IMG/VR virus record: IMGVR_UViG_3300037508_000609
Location: 1 to 33,038 of that record
From: a virus
Direction: 5' to 3' (one strand)
Length of the DNA: 33,038 nucleotides
This document shows positions 19,676-33,038 of this stretch, in pieces; position 1 is the first letter of the stretch; each line of letters starts with the position of its first letter. The notes under the pieces were generated by a model. The model did no database searches and was not told where the DNA came from. It saw only the letters and a list, made by a program, of their open reading frames with translations. A program made the translations under genes and the position numbers.

Positions 19676-19746
19676 GCGGTGATAGTGTAATTGGTAACAC
19701 GCTAAACATCCAGTTTAGAATTGGAGTTCGAACCTACCTCACCGCT
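19676..19746 (+). tRNA. Degenerate tRNA-like RNA (closest to tRNA-Gly(UCC))
   Basis: The acceptor stem GCGGTGA/TCACCGC pairs perfectly, T8 and A9 are present, the D stem GTGT/ACAC encloses AATTGGTA, the anticodon stem CTAAA/TTTAG is perfect, and the T loop is TTCGAAC. Odd points: position 33 is A instead of U, the T stem has two mismatches, the variable loop is only three bases, and CCA is not encoded. The loop CATCCAG would give anticodon UCC. It has its own promoter and terminator and runs antisense to the last ~14 codons of the Mom-like gene. It may be a weak tRNA, a decoy or an antisense RNA. Confidence 0.55.
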
Positions 19747-20460
19747 CAAATTAGCCCTGCGTTCTTGCAGGGTTATTTTTTGCCCCTTATACATACCTGC
19801 TCCCATTTCATCTATTTTACTGAAAGGTAAAATAGGAACGGTTATTTTGCAGGTTTTATCAATTAGGTAAATGTATTTTAATTGTTTACCGAGTAATGGT
19901 TTACCTTTTAATACATCCACCATATATTTTTTAGCATTGCCATAACCACTTTCTAACATCTTTTTTCTTAATGCTCCGTGCTGTCCACCTTGTAATCCCA
20001 TTAAATGTAAAGTTTCTCCATTTGGAAGTTGATATATTTGTTTGCTTTCATTAATATTTGTTAAAACAAAACCACTTGCCCGGTATATTGTGCCATCACC
20101 ACATTGCGTTGCATCGGCAAAGCTGATAACCCATTTTATATGTGGAGCATTTTTTTTGATAAGCAATAAACAAATTTTAATAAACCTACTTTCAGTGTTT
20201 TTAGGTGTGCCGTCAATACACACCAAACGGTTTAATTCTAAAAAATCGTTCCATTTGGTATTTTCAACGATATGCAAATGTAGATATTTATTTATAGGTC
20301 TTCCCCATTGTGCAACACCTATCATTTTATTATCTAAAAAAGCACCAAAGCAAATTAAACCAGTTGCAGCAACCTTTCCGCTGTAATGGTGCTGCTTTAC
20401 AAATTCATTGGCAATCTTTGACGGGATAACCTTTACAATTATTTCTTTTGCTCTGCCCAT
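19702..20460 (-). CDS. Mom-like DNA modification protein (GNAT-type)
   Basis: 252 residues. The pattern ANEFVKQHHYSGK (~18-30), FGAFLDNKMIGVAQWGRP (~38-55), LELNRLVCIDGTPKNTESRF (~73-92), WVISFADATQCGDGTIYRASGF (~109-130) matches phage Mom and related acetyltransferase-fold proteins. Mom of phage Mu modifies adenines in phage DNA to block restriction. The gene is visibly richer in A and T than its neighbours, which hints at recent transfer. Its last ~27 codons overlap an antisense terminator and tRNA-like gene, so the C-terminus may be a late addition. It overlaps the ParB-like gene by 22 bases. Confidence 0.75.
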   Translation of the reverse strand: MGRAKEIIVKVIPSKIANEFVKQHHYSGKVAATGLICFGAFLDNKMIGVAQWGRPINKYLHLHIVENTKWNDFLELNRLVCIDGTPKNTESRFIKICLLLIKKNAPHIKWVISFADATQCGDGTIYRASGFVLTNINESKQIYQLPNGETLHLMGLQGGQHGALRKKMLESGYGNAKKYMVDVLKGKPLLGKQLKYIYLIDKTCKITVPILPFSKIDEMGAGMYKGQKITLQERRANLSGEVGSNSNSKLDV

Positions 20461-21041
20461 TGCATTATGATTAAATACAGCGCATTTCCGTTGCTGTTTT
20501 CGTTGCCAAAGGTTTCGGAGTATTTATACTCATTAGTCAACTTTATATCAGAAATGGCCATTTTTATCTGCTCCGCTTGTTCGTCTGCCAATGTGAATGT
20601 CATTTGCTGAAATGGTGCTTTATCCCCATCGGGCAAACTAAATTCAGTTCCTAACTCATCTGTATCAACTTTGAAACCGGGCAAGTCCAATCCCCACGCT
20701 TCTAACTGCTGTGCATCCCATTCGTTTGCAAGTGCATTCCAATCCCACTCACCGAAGCCCACATTGTCTTTAATCAGGAATTGCGCACGTTGTTCCTCTG
20801 TCCATTCGTCTGCGAGAATAATCGGTATCTCCTTTGCACCAATATCCGACAATGCTTTCAGTCGCATATTGCCACCCAGCACGATATAATGGTCACCCTC
20901 GGTATAGCAAACCAAGGGCCGCTTTTCCAGCATTTCAGGAAAGTCAATAATTGACTGCTTTAACTTTGCGAACTTTTCATCCCGAATGACACGGGGATTG
21001 TTCGGGTTTGGTCGAACCTGTGTTAATTTAACCCACTGCAT
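20439..21041 (-). CDS. ParB-like nuclease-domain protein
   Basis: 200 residues. The N-terminal half reads as a ParB/Sulfiredoxin-like domain: VKLTQVRPNPNNPRVIRDEK (~4-23), KLKQSIIDFPEM, GDHYIVLGGNMRLKALSDIG (~49-68), where GGNMR matches the GxxRR-type motif. Phage versions bind or nick DNA and often sit beside methyltransferase genes. Residues ~100-135 (WDWNALANEWDAQQLEAWGLD) are also common in this phage group. It overlaps the methyltransferase gene by 14 bases. The exact activity is unknown. Confidence 0.75.
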   Translation of the reverse strand: MQWVKLTQVRPNPNNPRVIRDEKFAKLKQSIIDFPEMLEKRPLVCYTEGDHYIVLGGNMRLKALSDIGAKEIPIILADEWTEEQRAQFLIKDNVGFGEWDWNALANEWDAQQLEAWGLDLPGFKVDTDELGTEFSLPDGDKAPFQQMTFTLADEQAEQIKMAISDIKLTNEYKYSETFGNENSNGNALYLIIMQWAEQKK

Positions 21042-21645
21042 ATATTCTTACGTTTCTGTTAATGTGATTGTCAGGTTTGAAACCAAACTGCGCCATCAAA
21101 TAGTCAAGCCCTGCATGGCTGAAAATTGTGCAATGCCCCACCTTTGGTTCAATGTATTCGTCATTTTCGGTAAGCCAATCTGCAAAGGAAGTTTCAATCA
21201 TAATCTTACTTCCGGGGTGGCAGAACTCTTTTATTTCGGCTAATTCTGCAAATGGTGCGGTCAGGTGTTCTATTACCTCGGTCAGCACAATGACATCATA
21301 GTCCTTTTTAAGGGACAAAACATTGGCATAATATCCGTTATAAGGGTCATAACCATCGCAGTCAATACCAGCATCCTGCATGAATGTAACCATCAAACCA
21401 GTGCCACACCCATAATCTAAAATGGTGGGGTTATCCTTGCCTGATATTTTGCGGATGCGGTCAAGCCGGGTTTGGTTTAACTCATCGGCATTGCGTTCAT
21501 ATTCTTTGCCACCGCCAACCATGCCTGATTGGTCTAACTTTTTGCAGAAGATATTAGCCAAGTCATCGGTGTAGTATTGCACCCCATCTTTGACAAATGC
21601 CTTTTTGGCTACCTTCCCGGTGATGGGTGATTTAGTTTTGCTCAT
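21028..21645 (-). CDS. SAM-dependent methyltransferase (class I)
   Basis: 205 residues with motif I TILDYGCGTGLM (~74-85), a post-I region DGYDPYNGYY (~97-106), and YDVIVLTEVIEHL (~115-127), as in Methyltransf_23-type enzymes that use S-adenosylmethionine. The target cannot be read from the sequence; this subfamily more often acts on small molecules or sugars than on DNA bases, and no DNA methylase motif (DPPY-like) is present. Its neighbours are a GT9-like glycosyltransferase and a ParB-like protein. Confidence 0.8.
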   Translation of the reverse strand: MSKTKSPITGKVAKKAFVKDGVQYYTDDLANIFCKKLDQSGMVGGGKEYERNADELNQTRLDRIRKISGKDNPTILDYGCGTGLMVTFMQDAGIDCDGYDPYNGYYANVLSLKKDYDVIVLTEVIEHLTAPFAELAEIKEFCHPGSKIMIETSFADWLTENDEYIEPKVGHCTIFSHAGLDYLMAQFGFKPDNHINRNVRIYAVG

Positions 21646-22926: not shown

Positions 22927-23506
22927 TATATTTTTCTTTGATTTGTGTTTTGATTGCGTTTATTATTTGGCTTATCTCTCGGTAGTTTATTTTGGTGTCA
23001 CGGGCAATCATTGCCATGCTCTGTTTGTCTTCCCACAACTGCCATAACTTTACCACATACCACTCACTCCGGTTGAAATGATTAGCCACCTCTTTGAAAT
23101 TGACAGACTCCACGGCTTCCTGTTTGCGCCTGATGTGTGTTTCGTCATAATCTTCCGCTTCCTCATCGTAATTTTCGGGCAGGGTTTCTGTGGTGCGCAG
23201 AAAATCCCGGTAAAACTTTGTGTAACGATTGCCGTTGACCGCATTGCATCCCACCCGGACAAGGTAGTACACCAGTCCATTACTTTGGTGAAGTGATATA
23301 AGGCGGTCGGCATCCATTTCACAGCAGATAAGTAGAAGGTGTTGTTGTAGGTCGGCAGCAACGTGAGACCCTATTTTGTTACAGAAGTCAGGCAGCCATT
23401 TGGAATTGGCAAGTTCAATCAGTATCTCTGTGCGCTTGTTCAAGTTTAAGTGCGTGAACTTTTTTGAGCCAATCTTTGAATGACTTGTTATCCCCATACC
23501 GGGCAT
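22910..23506 (-). CDS. Sigma-70-like transcription factor
   Basis: Up to 198 residues. The part after ~residue 22 matches the layout of small phage sigma-like factors: ILIELANSKWLPDFCNKIG and HVAADLQQHLLLICCEM (region 2-like), VYYLVRVGCNAVNGN, an acidic linker, and a helix-turn-helix (IARDTKINYREISQIINAIK, region 4-like). The ATG at 23506 overlaps the HNH gene by 92 bases; TTG at 23443 gives a better start because it removes residues that only reflect HNH coding. It probably redirects the host RNA polymerase to late phage promoters. Confidence 0.65.
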   Translation of the reverse strand: MPGMGITSHSKIGSKKFTHLNLNKRTEILIELANSKWLPDFCNKIGSHVAADLQQHLLLICCEMDADRLISLHQSNGLVYYLVRVGCNAVNGNRYTKFYRDFLRTTETLPENYDEEAEDYDETHIRRKQEAVESVNFKEVANHFNRSEWYVVKLWQLWEDKQSMAMIARDTKINYREISQIINAIKTQIKEKYNEYDD

Positions 23507-23684
23507 GGTCTTTCCTGCATAATGCCATCAGGTTTTCAATCACATCAGCGTGTTTGCTTCCACCCATCCCCCGGGCTTCGATATGGTGAATGTCCACAGC
23601 TTGTGCGCCACATACCTCGCATGGGATAAAATCACTTTTGTCATAGCCGAAATGGTCAAGGTATACCTTGGTATGCTTCTTCAC
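23415..23684 (-). CDS. HNH endonuclease
   Basis: 89 residues with CEVCG (22-26), DIHHIEARGMGG (31-42), NLMALCRKDHARYG (51-64): two zinc-binding Cys pairs and the HH...N...H active site of HNH nucleases. Phage HNH proteins of this size often assist terminase in DNA cutting. It is the first gene of the leftward block. The start is GTG at 23684, four bases after a TTTG that resembles a weak promoter -7 element (TAAACTTTG). Confidence 0.8.
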   Translation of the reverse strand: MKKHTKVYLDHFGYDKSDFIPCEVCGAQAVDIHHIEARGMGGSKHADVIENLMALCRKDHARYGDNKSFKDWLKKVHALKLEQAHRDTD

Positions 23685-23795
23685 GGCACAAAGTTTATTC
23701 GTAAAAGGTCGATATTTTTATATTGTGGATAACTTTTATAAAAATAATTTAACAAAAACTATTGCAAGTATAGAAAAGTATATTATATTTGCGGT
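23685..23795. promoter_or_regulatory. Divergent control region with DnaA box, candidate origin
   Basis: This gap separates the leftward and rightward gene blocks and is very AT-rich. A perfect DnaA box, TTATCCACA, lies on the minus strand at 23724-23732. A consensus rightward promoter ends at 23791. The phage encodes a DnaA domain IV protein (26614-27069) that could bind the box, so an origin or replication-linked switch is plausible. Confidence 0.55.
23762..23791 (+). promoter_or_regulatory. Early promoter P1, leaderless
   Basis: TTG at 23762-23764, 19 bases, TATATTTG at 23784-23791, then CGGT and the ATG at 23796. The expected transcription start coincides with the start codon, so the mRNA should lack a 5' leader. 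Confidence 0.75.
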
Positions 23796-24089
23796 ATGGA
23801 AACACAAAAATATATGACAAACGTAACTTTCAACCTAAACGATTTAGGTTCATCGGATTTCAGAAGTTGGATTTTAGTTCAACAATCGTATGCTAACAAT
23901 TGTTTGCATGAAGAAATTATGGAATGTGGTTTCAACACATGGTCAGGATATGTATACATTGCATTAGAAAATGGTATACAGATAGCATCTTGTTTTGGGC
24001 AAAGTGTTGATTATATCATTTCGGATTTTGAAACAGGTGAGGAACATTTTTTTTCTACTTATGAAGAAGCTCAAAATTATAATAAATAA
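23796..24089 (+). CDS. Early protein of unknown function (97 aa)
   Basis: First gene of the rightward block. 97 residues: METQKYMTNVTFNLNDLGSS, then helix and strand segments ending FFSTYEEAQNYNK. Acidic and aromatic-rich, with no membrane segment. AT-rich DNA and an A-rich start (ATGGAAACACAAA), shared with the 28032 gene, may help leaderless translation. Early position suggests a host-takeover or anti-defence role, but nothing in the sequence proves it. Confidence 0.65.
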   Translation: METQKYMTNVTFNLNDLGSSDFRSWILVQQSYANNCLHEEIMECGFNTWSGYVYIALENGIQIASCFGQSVDYIISDFETGEEHFFSTYEEAQNYNK

Positions 24090-24479: not shown

Positions 24480-24692
24480 ATGAACATTTACAAACCCACA
24501 CCACTACCAGTCGCATATTGTGACGAACAAATCGCAGAACTTGAACTGCGCAAAGAGTATGAAAATTATAGGCGAGAAAATCAGGTCATCACGTTATTAC
24601 AATGTGAGTACCTGTGGATGAAACTTGACCTGCAAATCATCTATTACAACCAATGCAAAAAATTAACCATGAAAGGAAAGCCAAATGAGTAA
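24480..24692 (+). CDS. Small helical protein before the replication initiator
   Basis: 70 residues from ATG 24480: MNIYKPTPLPVAYCDEQIAE, then a long Glu/Arg/Tyr helix. A start at 24390 would add 30 residues that lie wholly inside the structured RNA and terminator stem, so I reject it. It overlaps the initiator gene by 8 bases. A helper of the replication proteins is possible; no family is recognised. Confidence 0.6.
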   Translation: MNIYKPTPLPVAYCDEQIAELELRKEYENYRRENQVITLLQCEYLWMKLDLQIIYYNQCKKLTMKGKPNE

Positions 24693-25353
24693 CGGCTGGA
24701 TAAAAATACACAGGTGCATGATGGACAACCCATTGTACCATTCCGAACCATTTAACAGAACCCATGCTTGGATTGACCTTTTATTGTTAGCCAATAGCAA
24801 TGATAACTTTTTTTACAAGCGTGGCATCCGTGTCAATATTCAGCGTGGACAAATCGGCCACGATGCTGATACTTTGGCAAAAAGATGGAAGTGGTCAAGA
24901 GGTAAGGTGGAAAGATACTTGACTATGCTTGAAAGTGATGGCATGATAGTAAGGCAAAAAAGCAACGTAACTACCTTAATATCAATATGTAAGTACGATG
25001 ACTATCAGGCAAACGATAAAGCAAATAGTAAGGCAAATGATAAAGCAAACGGACATCAAACAGTAAAGCAAACGGACACTAACAAGAATGATAAGAATTA
25101 TAAGAATGAAAAGAATGTAGAGATATATAGGCAAATTCTTCATTTACAAATCACACGGGCAGAAGTTGACAAGCTAATTGCTGATGGCTATACCATTGAC
25201 CAAATTGATAACATTCTGGACAGGGCAGAAAACTGGAAAGGAATTGCAAACAAAAGGTCACTATACCTTACCGCAAAAAATTGGCTATCCTCTGACAGCA
25301 AAAAAACCACAGCAGAAATCTACCGAACACCAAAAGAAAACTTTTTAACATGA
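24685..25353 (+). CDS. Replication initiator-like protein with winged helix
   Basis: 222 residues. MSNGWIKIHRCMMDNPLYHS and RTHAWIDLLLLAN open the protein; residues ~52-100 (QIGHDADTLAKRWKWSRGKVERYLTMLESDG) form a winged helix as in phage O/DnaD-type initiators. Residues ~108-144 are low complexity (Lys, Asn, Asp, Ala), encoded by direct repeats that look like iterons. The C-terminal part (ITRAEVDKLIADGYTIDQID; LYLTAKNWL) may bind the helicase. As in lambda O, the origin may lie in this gene. Its stop overlaps the DnaB-like gene start as ATGA. Confidence 0.7.
   Translation: MSNGWIKIHRCMMDNPLYHSEPFNRTHAWIDLLLLANSNDNFFYKRGIRVNIQRGQIGHDADTLAKRWKWSRGKVERYLTMLESDGMIVRQKSNVTTLISICKYDDYQANDKANSKANDKANGHQTVKQTDTNKNDKNYKNEKNVEIYRQILHLQITRAEVDKLIADGYTIDQIDNILDRAENWKGIANKRSLYLTAKNWLSSDSKKTTAEIYRTPKENFLT
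25008..25078 (+). repeat. Iteron-like direct repeats inside the initiator gene
   Basis: Three near copies with a 23-24 base period share the core (G)ATAAAGCAAA. The 15-mer TAAAGCAAACGGACA occurs exactly at 25041-25055 and 25064-25078, and GGCAAAYGATAAAGCAAAYR at 25008 and 25032. An AAGAATR repeat tract and AT-rich DNA follow (25084-25130), as in a lambda-type origin. Confidence 0.6.
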
Positions 25354-26585
25354 TTGAGCAACAAATTCTCGGAACGTGGTTGCAAGGTAAGCAGCTGGAT
25401 TTAACCGCAACCGTACGCAGCGAATGGTTCACAGTGCCAAAATACCGCACTCTATGTTTGACCATTCAGGCAATGTACCTTAACAATGAGCATATTGACA
25501 ACGTGGCGGTGGTAATGAAGCACCGTGACATGGCAATGGACATCGCAGGGCTGAACAACTACTACACAGGGGAAAGCATTACCCGGCTTGTTTCAATGTT
25601 GCATCAGGAATACATCCGCAAAACCCTGACTATTGACTTGACAAAAATTGTCAATGACCTGACAAACGGAAGTGAAATAATGCAGTCCATGTCGGAAGTT
25701 CAAAAAACTATTGACGAATTGCAACTTAACGAAAGCGGACAAGCTGTTGACCTGATCACTTTACTCGGTGACCGCTTCGACAACTTGGAGAAACGAAGCA
25801 AGGCAGAAATCAAAACGATAGGACTACCAACCGGGTTTACAAAACTTGACAAGTACATCGGTGGTTTTGTTCCAGGTGAAAACGTGGTGGTTGCAGGTCG
25901 GCCCGGTATGGGTAAGACAGCATTCGCAGTCAGCATCGGGATTGCCCATGCAAAGCTGGGGGGCAGAGTGATAATGTTTAGTATGGAGATGAGCAAAGAA
26001 CAACTGGCAGACCGCATACTTTCCTCGCTTGGCCGGGTGGACAACCTGAAAGTCCGTAACGCTGATGTCAATGAATTTGAACTTGAAAATATCGCACGTG
26101 AATTACTGCTGATTGATTACAAATTTCAAATCGAAGACAGCACAATGCTGGACATTGCCCAAATAAAAACCCGAATTAAAACCATGAAAGTAAAACCCAC
26201 ACTGGTAATAATTGATTATATGCAGTTGGTCAAATCCACCGGGGGCAAAAATCGTGAGCAGGAAATTGCCAACATAAGTAGGCAATGCAAACTTATTGCC
26301 AAAGAATGCGGATGCACCGTGATGCCATTGTCACAACTTAACAGGGGAACAGAAGAAGGAAACAGCCGCCCAAAATTGGCAAACCTTCGGGAGTCCGGGT
26401 CGATAGAACAGGATGCAGACACGGTTTTATTCCCATACCGCCCTGATTATTATGAAGCCCAGAAGAATGGCGGCAACCCACCTGAACTTGAAGATGCTGA
26501 ACTGATAATCAGTAAGTGCCGGAACGGGATGACCGGAACGCTACAATGTAATTTTATGGGTAAAACGGTTGAATACATTTTTTAA
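25350..26585 (+). CDS. dnaB: Replicative DNA helicase, DnaB-like
   Basis: 411 residues. The N-terminal helical part (~1-130) is followed by a RecA-type core: LPTGFTKLDKYIGGFVPGE (~159-177), Walker A GRPGMGKT (183-190), FSMEMSKEQLADRIL (~210-224), Walker B IIDYMQL (287-293), PLSQLNRGTEE and RESGSIEQDADTVLF, then KCRNGMTGT near the end. These are all DnaB motifs including the arginine-finger region. It would unwind DNA at the fork after loading by the initiator. No DNA polymerase is encoded, so the host replisome is probably recruited. Confidence 0.9.
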   Translation: MIEQQILGTWLQGKQLDLTATVRSEWFTVPKYRTLCLTIQAMYLNNEHIDNVAVVMKHRDMAMDIAGLNNYYTGESITRLVSMLHQEYIRKTLTIDLTKIVNDLTNGSEIMQSMSEVQKTIDELQLNESGQAVDLITLLGDRFDNLEKRSKAEIKTIGLPTGFTKLDKYIGGFVPGENVVVAGRPGMGKTAFAVSIGIAHAKLGGRVIMFSMEMSKEQLADRILSSLGRVDNLKVRNADVNEFELENIARELLLIDYKFQIEDSTMLDIAQIKTRIKTMKVKPTLVIIDYMQLVKSTGGKNREQEIANISRQCKLIAKECGCTVMPLSQLNRGTEEGNSRPKLANLRESGSIEQDADTVLFPYRPDYYEAQKNGGNPPELEDAELIISKCRNGMTGTLQCNFMGKTVEYIF

Positions 26586-26609
26586 ATATAAATAATTAAA
26601 CTATATTTG
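26580..26609 (+). promoter_or_regulatory. Early promoter P2, leaderless
   Basis: TATATTTG at 26602-26609, then CACC and ATG 26614. At 19 bases upstream the -33 box reads TTT instead of TTG, so it is weaker than P1, P3 and P4. It overlaps the end of the helicase gene. Confidence 0.6.
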
Positions 26610-26613
26610 CACC

Positions 26614-27069
26614 ATGAGAATAAAAATCAAAGCACCACAGCGCAACAGCCGGACAACATTTCGCCAAAGTGAAATTGAACGGCTCAAAGAGGTCATCTAC
26701 CATCAGTCGATACGCATTCAGGAACTCGAAAGGATGCTCAAAGTTGACCAAATGGACAAGTCCGAACACTACATAAAGGCCGCACACCTTGCAATCAAAT
26801 CGGTTTTCGCTGAATACCAGCCCGAATTTATCACCATTGAAACCCGGAAGCGGGATATAGTGGAACTGCGGCAAATATTTCAATGGCTTTGCCGCAATAA
26901 GACCACACTTTCGTTGCAAAAAATCGGGCAATTATGCGGTGGCCGTGATCATTCCACGATAATAAATTCGTGCAGGGTGGTGGATAACCTGATGCTGTAC
27001 GATAAAAGGTTCGCCCGTAACCTTGAAACCGTGAAAAACAAGTTTGAAAACTTTGCAGAACAGATTTAA
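26614..27069 (+). CDS. Stand-alone DnaA domain IV (DNA-binding) protein
   Basis: 151 residues. Residues ~20-45 form a coiled helix. Residues ~53-150 match the C-terminal DNA-binding domain of DnaA: SLQKIGQLCGGRDHSTIINS (100-119) contains the DnaA signature GGRDHSTI that reads the DnaA box. The AAA+ ATPase domain is absent, so it cannot be an ordinary initiator; it may recruit or compete with host DnaA. The perfect DnaA box at 23724-23732 is a ready target. It has its own leaderless promoter. Confidence 0.85.
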   Translation: MRIKIKAPQRNSRTTFRQSEIERLKEVIYHQSIRIQELERMLKVDQMDKSEHYIKAAHLAIKSVFAEYQPEFITIETRKRDIVELRQIFQWLCRNKTTLSLQKIGQLCGGRDHSTIINSCRVVDNLMLYDKRFARNLETVKNKFENFAEQI

Positions 27070-27082
27070 TTTACTATATTTG
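27053..27082 (+). promoter_or_regulatory. Early promoter P3, leaderless
   Basis: TTG at 27053-27055 (in TTTG), 19 bases, TATATTTG at 27075-27082, then CACC and ATG 27087. A full consensus match, with the -33 box inside the end of the DnaA-like gene. Confidence 0.75.
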
Positions 27083-27086
27083 CACC

Positions 27087-27398
27087 ATGTTAATACTCGA
27101 TATATGCCTATCAGACCTCCCCAGCGAGGCAATCACTACCGCAAAGAACGGAAAGAAGTACATCAAACTCGTATGTGCTGAACGCAAAGCCGAAGGAAAG
27201 TTCGGAGAAACCCATTACATTGCCCTGTCGCAAACCAAAGAAGAACGGGAAGCCAAGAAACCTGCAACCTATGTTGGGGGTGCTAAAAATGTAAGTTACA
27301 AAAATGTAACACCCAGCAAAAGCGGTATTCCTGATGCAGCAAAAGAGGAGTATGCGAACTCAATGTACAACCAAAATAGCAACGATTTACCGTTCTAA
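27087..27398 (+). CDS. Single-stranded DNA-binding-like protein
   Basis: 103 residues. A short beta-type N-terminal part (LILDICLSDLPSEAITTAKN, KKYIKLVCAERK) suggests a trimmed OB fold, and the disordered C-terminal tail ends in NDLPF, like the SSB tip that binds replication partners. It sits between DnaA-like and recombination genes. SSB function is inferred from the tail and context; the core is shorter than bacterial SSB. Confidence 0.6.
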   Translation: MLILDICLSDLPSEAITTAKNGKKYIKLVCAERKAEGKFGETHYIALSQTKEEREAKKPATYVGGAKNVSYKNVTPSKSGIPDAAKEEYANSMYNQNSNDLPF

Positions 27399-28297: not shown

Positions 28298-28759
28298 ATG
28301 AATGAAACACTAACCGCACCTATTCAGCCAAACGAGATTGAATGGCGGGTGCAATCAGTCACCAGCACAGGCAAAATGATTGTCGTGCCTTACATCAACA
28401 ATCGCTGTGTAATGCAACGATTTGACGCTGCCTTCGGGCCGACAAATTGGACTTCCGAGTTCAGGGAAATAGGCAACGGATTTATTTGCCGCCTTACTGT
28501 GAACGTAGATGGTCAATTTGTCTACCGGGAAGATGGTGCATCCAAGACAAATATCGAACCTGAAAAGGGTGGTATCAGCGATGCAATGAAAAGGGCTGCG
28601 GTGCAGTTTGGTTTGGGCCGATGCCTGTACGATTACCCCAAGGTATTCATTGAATGCAACGACAAGTATATCCCTGACTGGGCGCAGGACAAATTAACCA
28701 AGCTGGTTGAGTGGGTAAATCTCGGTAACTTCAAAGAAGTAATAATTTTGAAGCCATGA
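28298..28759 (+). CDS. Rad52-like single-strand annealing protein
   Basis: 153 residues. EWRVQSVTSTGKMIVVPYIN (~15-34), CVMQRFDAAFGPTNWTSEFR (~38-57), FVYREDGASKTNIEPEKGGI (~74-93) and SDAMKRAAVQFGLGRCLYDY (~94-113) match the phage Rad52/Rad22 fold pattern. Such proteins anneal complementary single strands during recombination-driven replication. It stands beside the SSB-like gene. A 41-base gap before it shows no promoter match; an AAGGA lies upstream of the ATG. Confidence 0.85.
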   Translation: MNETLTAPIQPNEIEWRVQSVTSTGKMIVVPYINNRCVMQRFDAAFGPTNWTSEFREIGNGFICRLTVNVDGQFVYREDGASKTNIEPEKGGISDAMKRAAVQFGLGRCLYDYPKVFIECNDKYIPDWAQDKLTKLVEWVNLGNFKEVIILKP

Positions 28760-31435: not shown

Positions 31436-32061
31436 CCGAATGTGCAAAATAGGGTAAAATCTATGGTTTGCCCAGCGTTAAATCGCTTTACAATCTCAAA
31501 CCAATGCTTATCAGGTACAACCTGACATCCTGCTGACCACTTATTTACCCAGTCACCAAGCCCGGCACGGTGAAAGTTGATGCCAAACAACCCGAACTGC
31601 GTGACTTTTTGGTCAAGTTGCCTGTCTTTTGTACCATCCCGGTAGATAGTAATGGGTAAAATCTGCTGAAAATAAGGCGCACCAAGCCACAAATTAGACC
31701 ATTTTGCACCCGTTACAAAGCGGTGTGAACCGACAATCTGCTGTTCAGCGGCTACCGCAGTACCGTTTATCCCACCAACGGTGAGGGGATTGTACACATA
31801 AAAGTCCCCTGCCGTGGTGGAAGCAGGGCAAACATAGACAATTTGGCCGTATTTGTAGACTACGCAGAAGTCATCGAAGCTATTTGTCAGCTTATCATCC
31901 GTGCGCAACCATACAATCCCGTGATATTGCGGTAGCCATTTGCGTTTTTTCAGCTCATTGGCAATGTAATTGGCGAGTGCTTCGGTAGTTTTCGGGCCGA
32001 TAACCCCATCCGCTTTCAGGTTTGCCCCGTTTTTGTTCAGTAGTTCTTGCAGTGCTTTCAT
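31432..32061 (-). CDS. Endolysin: peptidoglycan-binding domain plus L,D-transpeptidase-like domain
   Basis: 209 residues from ATG 32061, chosen because it overlaps the spanin-like stop as ATGA; the longer frame adds a hydrophobic stretch that is only the neighbour's DNA. Residues 3-38 (ALQELLNKNGANLKADGVIG) form a peptidoglycan-binding repeat. The C-terminal domain has INFHRAG (His164) and KWSAGCQVV (Ser176, Cys179), like the H...S-x-G-C site of YkuD-type L,D-transpeptidases. It would cut or remodel host peptidoglycan at lysis. The stop lies inside a convergent hairpin. The family call is from motif order only. Confidence 0.7.
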   Translation of the reverse strand: MKALQELLNKNGANLKADGVIGPKTTEALANYIANELKKRKWLPQYHGIVWLRTDDKLTNSFDDFCVVYKYGQIVYVCPASTTAGDFYVYNPLTVGGINGTAVAAEQQIVGSHRFVTGAKWSNLWLGAPYFQQILPITIYRDGTKDRQLDQKVTQFGLFGINFHRAGLGDWVNKWSAGCQVVPDKHWFEIVKRFNAGQTIDFTLFCTFG

Positions 32062-32564
32062 TTGGCTATGAATAATAATGATGATAAGATTGCGATATTT
32101 CGCCACGCATTTCTTTTCCTACGCATTTTATTGTTATCTGTGACACATTGTTCCAACTGCTTATTTTGAGTGGCTGTAATGGCTTCTAAATGCGTTATCG
32201 CACTATCCTGTAATTTTATTACTTGCTCTTGGCTGTAAATTACCACGCTGTCGTCACTGATAATCTCCCAACAAAGTTGATTTTCATCAATTAGGGCGGC
32301 AAGTTTAACTGTGTCTTTTTGCAGTTCGGTAATGGTCAGCGTATCGTGGACATATTTTGTCCTAATTTCACGGATGCGTTTTATCTTTTCAGGTCGGTTG
32401 ATCAACAGCGCAGCATACTCGTTTTTGATGCTGTCAATTTCGGCATTTAAACTATCTACCAGTCCTGTGTCTGCCTGTGGTTTTTGTTGTGTCGGGCAAT
32501 GCCCAAAGACAAGCACAATACCAAGTACACCACAAAGCACAAAAAGCCAATCACTTCGTTTCAT
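32058..32564 (-). CDS. Spanin-like lysis protein, second allele
   Basis: Same layout as 421-927: hydrophobic N-terminus, coiled-coil middle, hydrophobic C-terminus. Differences cluster in the middle (for example L-to-A and V-to-I near NRPEK, and D-to-A, S-to-A, V-to-E, A-to-V near TQNKQL), with both membrane ends unchanged. It overlaps the endolysin start by 4 bases. This is the copy next to the complete endolysin. Confidence 0.6.
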   Translation of the reverse strand: MKRSDWLFVLCGVLGIVLVFGHCPTQQKPQADTGLVDSLNAEIDSIKNEYAALLINRPEKIKRIREIRTKYVHDTLTITELQKDTVKLAALIDENQLCWEIISDDSVVIYSQEQVIKLQDSAITHLEAITATQNKQLEQCVTDNNKMRRKRNAWRNIAILSSLLFIAK

Positions 32565-32829
32565 CCTCCGCAAAGAAATTGGTCACGAACTTACCCACCG
32601 CACCGCACACACCTGAAATGAGCATCAACTTGGGATGGTCAAGGTTTAACCCGGCAACGAACAAAGATGCAGCCGCAATGCTGTCACCCAAAACCCTGAA
32701 ACGCTTTGGAGTTGGTTGGAAGTAGTTTTTTAATTTCATCTTCCTTGTCCTCGGTATGGTTTTGCTGACTTGTGTTTGTTCGCTGACTTCGTGTGTCTGC
32801 CCAGTTTCCGTTTGCTTTTCGGTTGCCAT
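32551..32829 (-). CDS. Small membrane lysis protein, second allele
   Basis: 92 residues, differing from the 914-1192 copy only in the polar N-terminus (N-to-H in TNEVSE, R-to-S in QVRKT). The hydrophobic C-terminal half is identical, which suggests that part carries the function. Confidence 0.6.
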   Translation of the reverse strand: MATEKQTETGQTHEVSEQTQVSKTIPRTRKMKLKNYFQPTPKRFRVLGDSIAAASLFVAGLNLDHPKLMLISGVCGAVGKFVTNFFAEDETK

Positions 32830-32841
32830 TTTACTATCTCC

Positions 32842-33000
32842 TTACTTTTTGCCATACTTGAAAAACTTATAGATGCCGATGCATGATAAAACAAGGGCAG
32901 CGGTGAAAGACAGGAATTGAATAATCGGAAGCAACTTTGCAGCAGCCCCGGCTAACCATAACAGCCAACTACCTACGATGGTTTCAGTTTCGTGCTTCAT
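32842..33000 (-). CDS. 52-aa holin candidate, second allele
   Basis: Same frame, start and stop as 1205-1363; the nucleotide changes I see near its 3' end (codons for Gly-Ile-Tyr-Lys-Phe-Phe-Lys-Tyr) are silent. Conserved protein with changed DNA is good evidence that this short frame is translated. Confidence 0.7.
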   Translation of the reverse strand: MKHETETIVGSWLLWLAGAAAKLLPIIQFLSFTAALVLSCIGIYKFFKYGKK

Positions 33001-33038
33001 CAGGGAAAGGGCGGTGCAGGTTTAGGAACGTATGGAAT
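33000..33038 (-). CDS. C-terminal end of the 83-aa protein (partial, second allele)
   Basis: Only the last 12 codons and stop are in the window. They match the end of the 1363-1614 gene, including the proline-rich tail. The gene is cut by the window edge. Confidence 0.7.
   Translation of the reverse strand: MPYVPKPAPPFP

Follow-up and report, generated by a model that had tools for sequence, protein, structure and literature searches.

A single conserved DnaA box as candidate operator and iteron-like repeats in a helicase-loader gene as candidate origin in a probable Bacteroidota phage

Described systems and the phage examined here

The plasmid origins R1 and pSC101 have one consensus DnaA box in AT-rich DNA, and these boxes serve the adjoining plasmid Rep origin. 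Several phages encode stand-alone DnaA domain IV proteins, for which we know of no tested function, and a search for literature directly on phage DnaA domain IV proteins found none. In lambdoid phages the iterons lie in the middle of O with A-rich DNA alongside (PMC7466680), and DnaA stimulates transcription from pR (PMC3985674, reference 18; PMC7466680).

The 33,038 bases considered here (all of IMG/VR record IMGVR_UViG_3300037508_000609; hereafter the window) resemble lambda in origin anatomy, though no sequence kinship of the loader to lambda O was found. As in lambda, the early promoter would transcribe the initiator and loader genes, and iteron-like repeats separate the two parts of the proposed initiator gene, next to A-rich DNA. 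Unlike lambda, the window has a DnaD-like loader with a phage-encoded DnaB-like helicase, a Bacteroidota-type promoter with one perfect DnaA box upstream, and a DnaA domain IV protein of its own (DnaA-IV), and its phage group exchanges several types of iteron and N-domain. Unlike R1 and pSC101, the window has no iterons beside its box.

The DnaA-IV gene (26614–27069, plus strand) encodes 151 amino acids that match PF08299 (Bac_DnaA_C) over residues 70–122 with 62.5 bits against a cut-off of 31.5. This was the sole family above its cut-off, and no AAA+ domain was found in the protein, so that the initial annotation was right to describe a domain IV gene with the GGRDHSTI motif and no ATPase domain. 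The profile of the DnaA-IV family matches the solved DnaA chains 8btg, 1j1v and 3pvp; a predicted structure was set aside (pLDDT 54). Like domain IV of E. coli (1j1v) and Bacillus (8btg) DnaA, the protein has the GGRDHST loop and equivalents of R399, R407 and Q408, and the base-reading residues R399, R407, Q408, D433 and H434 (E. coli numbering) are all kept in the window and its close relatives. Unlike those DnaA proteins it stands alone, with a helical N-terminus and without the AAA+ domain. In a second clade of relatives the recognition motif is GNRHHTT or GNRNYTT, with D433 replaced and, in L101, H434 replaced too.

Domain IV proteins lacking AAA+ are likewise found in the early block of Cellulophaga phages phi46:3 and phi19:3, Rhizobium phages RHph_TM3_3_3 and RHph_N28_2, and Microcystis phage Mae-JY35; in the two Rhizobium phages the stand-alone DnaA-like gene adjoins a DUF1376 gene. 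No TTATCCACA box was present in the stretches read of the named phages with similar stand-alone proteins, which means that the partnership with the box is not general, and a general association between DnaA-IV phages and TTATCCACA was rejected on this ground. Gut records labelled 'Bacteriophage sp.' with many boxes were excluded as probable bacterial dnaA regions.

The phage is probably a Bacteroidota phage. The promoter type and a 25 per cent portal match in Pedobacter, the only match in genome scans with the portal, point to a host in this phylum; genome scans with the DnaA-IV alignment gave no match. In Pedobacter sp. MR2016-24 (L256, L257 and L258) there are three DnaA-length frames with domain IV (497, 479 and 506 aa), each with TTATCCACA within about 1.5 kb. 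The ends of the window record (1–1401 and 31638–33038) are 93 per cent identical, with 97 differences, the last at position 1274. They therefore form an imperfect terminal repeat and not the exact overlap of an assembly, and may be variants from one population that were joined where a circular genome was cut open. A Mom-like DNA modification gene adjoins a ParB-like gene (19702–21041), and a predicted tRNA-Gly (tcc) on the plus strand (19676–19747), antisense to the edge of the Mom-like gene, may be spurious. The minus-strand block also contains a 32-nt tandem repeat in two copies (21287–21353). A search for RNA families in the record returned none.

The DnaA box, its spacer and the flanking promoters

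A perfect DnaA box (TTATCCACA) occupies 23724–23732 on the minus strand, inside a 112-bp spacer between a minus-strand block, the first gene of which encodes an HNH endonuclease (23415–23684, PF01844, starting at 23684), and the first early ATG on the plus strand at 23796. There is no second exact copy in the record. Its bare presence is not significant, because shuffled versions of the record hold 0.43 exact copies on average and at least one copy in 33 of 100 shuffles, and an argument from the count alone was rejected for that reason; it is the position and conservation of the box that carry significance. By nearest-neighbour energies, no 100-bp stretch of the record is less stable than 23690–23789 (18 per cent GC), which falls within the spacer. 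The initial annotation had placed the box in AT-rich DNA between opposed gene blocks, and this is confirmed. Of the features of an oriC-type origin, the spacer thus offers an AT-rich element that could unwind, and one exact box in 33 kb where a cluster of boxes would be expected. Cumulative GC skew has its minimum at the spacer, which was left unused as evidence of an origin since it is confounded by gene strand.

Scans of viral contigs turned up about 240 loci belonging to this phage group, many of them on shared contigs, and after removal of duplicates 51 distinct contigs contained the spacer. A search for the box in relatives, proposed with the initial annotation, bears out its conservation: the exact 9-mer is kept in the same spacer in 45 of these 51 contigs, which are related and not independent (44 unique spacers weigh as about 12), and one set of loci among them had been picked with a search pattern in which ATAACTT and the CAAAGTTT side were fixed and the GG of the box was free. 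Outside the spacer there is no other exact TTATCCACA in 550,569 bases of related contigs; given the kinship of these contigs, the figure does not establish that the sequence is avoided elsewhere. The 44 unique spacers align as three conserved islands with drifting sequence between them. The first is CAAAGTTT at 23689–23696 and the third is the early promoter with TATATTTG at 23784–23791. The second, at 23724–23735, includes the box and extends the 9-mer to 12 bp (AAGTTATCCACA on the minus strand, TGTGGATAACTT in the aligned spacers), so that the box first described is a perfect 9-mer within a longer conserved unit; within this island, conservation is lowest in the CC core (0.93 and 0.76). Taken together, the box is a conserved and presumably functional element.

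The genes around it are far from fixed. Relatives exchange the first early gene, extra minus-strand genes beside HNH, the loader and the helicase, and the helicase slot holds either a 411-aa DnaB-like protein or a 543-aa protein. The box, the early promoter and the DnaA-IV gene are retained while neighbouring genes swap, and DnaA-IV is present in all 25 contigs that extend 6.5 kb or more beyond the start of HNH. Among named phages, neither a megablast of the early region nor a protein search with one late-block gene found a match.

On the plus strand, ATTG followed by 19 bp and TATATTTG makes up a Bacteroidota-type promoter-like sequence (23762–23791), with the TTG of the −33 element at 23762–23764 and the −7 element at 23784–23791. 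In a flavobacterium the −7 box spans −12 to −5 (PMC9723704), and by this measure transcription is predicted to begin with the A of the first early ATG (23796), giving a leaderless message; in almost all relatives, as in the window, the ATG comes 5 nt past TTTG. On the other strand, a conserved TAAACTTTG (23689–23697) may be the mirror-image promoter of the HNH block. There AAACTTTG ends 5 nt ahead of the HNH start codon (GTG), a spacing suggestive of a second leaderless start, and the putative −7 element is one base longer than the consensus. Near-identical leaderless −7 promoter segments (ACTATATTTGCACCATG) also lie at 26600–26622 and 27073–27095, directly before the DnaA-IV and SSB-like genes.

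The centre of the box in the window is at −68 relative to the predicted early start. In every lineage measured this distance is −68/−67 or −57/−56 (after a shift of one to fit the −7 position of PMC9723704), a difference of one helical turn, as would be expected if a protein bound to the box touched RNA polymerase. The shorter distance is reached in two separate ways: L004 and L014 have lost 11 bp by deletion, and L100 and L119 are laid out differently, with a changed −33/−7 spacing. A box at a fixed and phased distance, as at DnaA-regulated promoters, is therefore found here, with the phasing drawn from few independent events.

Repeats and frozen codons in the loader gene

A second candidate for the start of replication lies 1.3 kb downstream, in the gene for a DnaD-like helicase loader and proposed initiator (24685–25353, plus strand; phrog_2514, E = 4.7e-29). 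Its PHROG matches are DnaD-like loaders, and a fold search yielded nothing beyond weak matches to winged-helix proteins, all with E above 0.001. The linker region of the gene contains three 22-nt iteron-like direct repeats (25010–25031, 25034–25055 and 25057–25078, plus strand; spacings 24 and 23), proposed here as the origin, and beside them a 9-nt tandem repeat in A-rich DNA (25084–25117, plus strand). The segment 25052–25151 has 28 per cent GC and is among the twelve least stable in the record, a rank that is not unique to it.

Relatives carry mosaic loaders (L008, L025, L014 and L044 among them) of at least five N-domain types, recombined at the linker, and the C-terminal halves swap independently with their joint in the same place. 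Each of the alternative N-domains of types B to D has its own repeat at the same position in the gene: CGAAACGCAGATGA three times at 22-bp spacing in type B, AACGACAAACAA five times in type C, and AAAAAGCAAAC three times, spaced 19 and 20 bp, in type D. Clear linker repeats are thus seen in four of five loader types, an arrangement of iterons inside the initiator gene like that of lambda. Most of the spacings are not multiples of three, and hence the repeats are not peptides repeated in one frame. With codon shuffles, the observed repeat score was reached in none of 300 for almost every sequence of types A–D (4 of 300 for one type C), and with synonymous shuffles the matches ranged from 0 to 13 of 300. 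The upper value belongs to the window, whose own iterons are weak by this measure. Control genes gave no repeat signal in the shuffle tests, and the type E loader gave no consistent one.

Synonymous positions in the linker are frozen as well. In diverged pairs of loaders, identical amino acids are written with the same codon in 91–100 per cent of cases in the linker and in about 60 per cent elsewhere in the gene (20/22 versus 66/109, 25/25 versus 80/126 and 22/24 versus 69/115 in three pairs; Fisher p = 0.004, 4e-5 and 0.002, combined 7e-8). The linker was delimited with the repeats already in view, and the top-scoring 20-codon windows of each gene still fall there. Even in the repeat-poor type E loader, the most frozen codons of two diverged pairs are in the linker, and neither the helicase nor the DnaA-IV genes have a comparable peak. 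It is therefore the other loader types and the freezing of codons, not the window's own repeats, that carry the case for iterons, and this case makes a replication start at about 25010–25117 more likely than one at the DnaA box.

Following the loader on the plus strand are a DnaB-like replicative helicase (25350–26585; PF03796, E = 6e-75), DnaA-IV, a probable SSB-like protein recognised by its acidic DLPF tail (27087–27398; it matched no family of known function), and a Rad52/Erf-like single-strand annealing protein (28298–28759; PF04098 and phrog_1097).

Readers of the box and competing explanations

On balance we lean slightly towards a reading in which the box is an operator for a protein of DnaA fold and not an origin, and replication starts inside the loader gene. 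The reader would bind at the one box, which has divergent and probably leaderless promoters on its two sides, and by activation or repression would set the output of the early promoter and perhaps of the divergent one too. The early promoter would then transcribe the loader, helicase, DnaA-IV, SSB-like and annealing genes, with a transcript that crosses the origin. The N-domain of the loader would bind the iterons in its own linker (25010–25078) and the C-domain would bring in the helicase, much as O and P do in lambda, and transcription through the loader gene may help to fire the origin as DnaA-stimulated pR does for lambda. The box, its conservation and helical spacing, the promoter-like sequence, the iterons with their frozen codons and the domain IV are seen in the DNA itself; that any protein binds or regulates here, whether it activates or represses, and where replication starts are inferred. 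In favour of the operator, a single site between divergent starts is kept with the promoter as a unit despite insertions of flanking genes; against it, no DNA in the record melts more easily than the spacer, as would be expected of an origin, and the spacer has the minimum of cumulative GC skew, though the latter is confounded by gene strand.

Which protein would read the box is a separate matter. In phages with the GGRDHST motif, 25 combinations of spacer and protein have the perfect box and 3 do not (TTATCAACA in L185, TTATAAACA in L187 and TTTTCAACA in L193), and in those with GNRHHTT it is perfect in 5 and not in 1. D433 contacts position 7 of the box (PMC8235120) and is replaced by histidine in the GNRHHTT clade, yet position 7 stays A. 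Co-variation of box and recognition helix, first hinted at by L100 and L101, was consequently rejected when more relatives were added, on small numbers and with the proviso that histidine may be tolerated. Since variants of the box do not track the recognition helix, host DnaA is a serious alternative reader. There is about an even chance that the reader is phage DnaA-IV, made early and acting in feedback or as an early/late switch, and a somewhat smaller one that it is host DnaA, by analogy with its stimulation of lambda pR; possibly the two compete for the box.

The initial annotation proposed that DnaA-IV captures the box to start replication, keeps host DnaA away or switches transcription between the blocks, and it stands in part. 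The switch is the best explanation of the sequence evidence, with the box at −68 or −57 from the early promoter and travelling with it, and keeping host DnaA away may be a role of the protein, whereas capture of the box for initiation is weakened by the loader-linker iterons with their frozen codons and by the want of co-variation with the helix. An origin at the box, at which DnaA-IV would bind, the AT-rich spacer melt and the loader bring in the phage helicase, is accordingly unlikely. Such an origin would agree with a conserved box in the least stable DNA, with the skew minimum, and with a DnaA-IV gene that adjoins the loader and helicase genes and is found in 25 of 25 long contigs; but there is one box only, DnaA-IV has no AAA+ domain with which to melt DNA, the loader gene holds a stronger candidate, the box does not co-vary with the recognition helix, and several phages with a canonical helix lack the box. 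It is a little less probable that host DnaA acts on the box as an accessory replication factor, as at the single-box plasmid origins, with the phage protein acting elsewhere. No iterons adjoin the box and it is held at a phased distance from a promoter, both of which argue against such a role, while the perfect universal consensus, the retention of the box in clade 2 although D433 of the phage protein is replaced, and a Bacteroidota genome with TTATCCACA near each DnaA-length gene speak for it.

Of similarly low probability is an action of DnaA-IV on the host, in which it would occupy chromosomal boxes and block initiation, the phage box being self-regulatory or minor. A motor-less domain IV with canonical reading residues could compete with DnaA, but this would by itself leave the strong conservation of the phage box unexplained, and the clade 2 proteins have altered reading residues. 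The poorest prospect is that the 12-bp island is the site of another phage regulator and its likeness to a DnaA box a coincidence. The lower conservation of the CC core than of the rest of the island, the conservation that runs past the 9-mer and the existence of the variants TTATCAACA and TTATAAACA would fit such a site; the exact consensus in 45 of 51 distinct contigs, at its sole place of occurrence, and a DnaA-IV gene that is always present where the contig is long enough do not.

Returning to the operator, a more specific and less probable proposal is that the motor-less domain IV is a dedicated early/late switch that acts at one box in competition with host DnaA, while an exchangeable cassette of iterons and binding domain in the loader gene, of at least four types, is the true origin. 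The stand-alone domain IV is here paired with a single, strongly conserved candidate site, which makes its role directly testable. The exchangeable iteron cassettes are at least as interesting as the box. To our knowledge few origins have been mapped in Bacteroidota phages, and the loader cassettes would give a ready-made series of origin and initiator specificities, exchanged among closely related phages, with which to study initiator–origin co-evolution and from which to predict origins in these phages.
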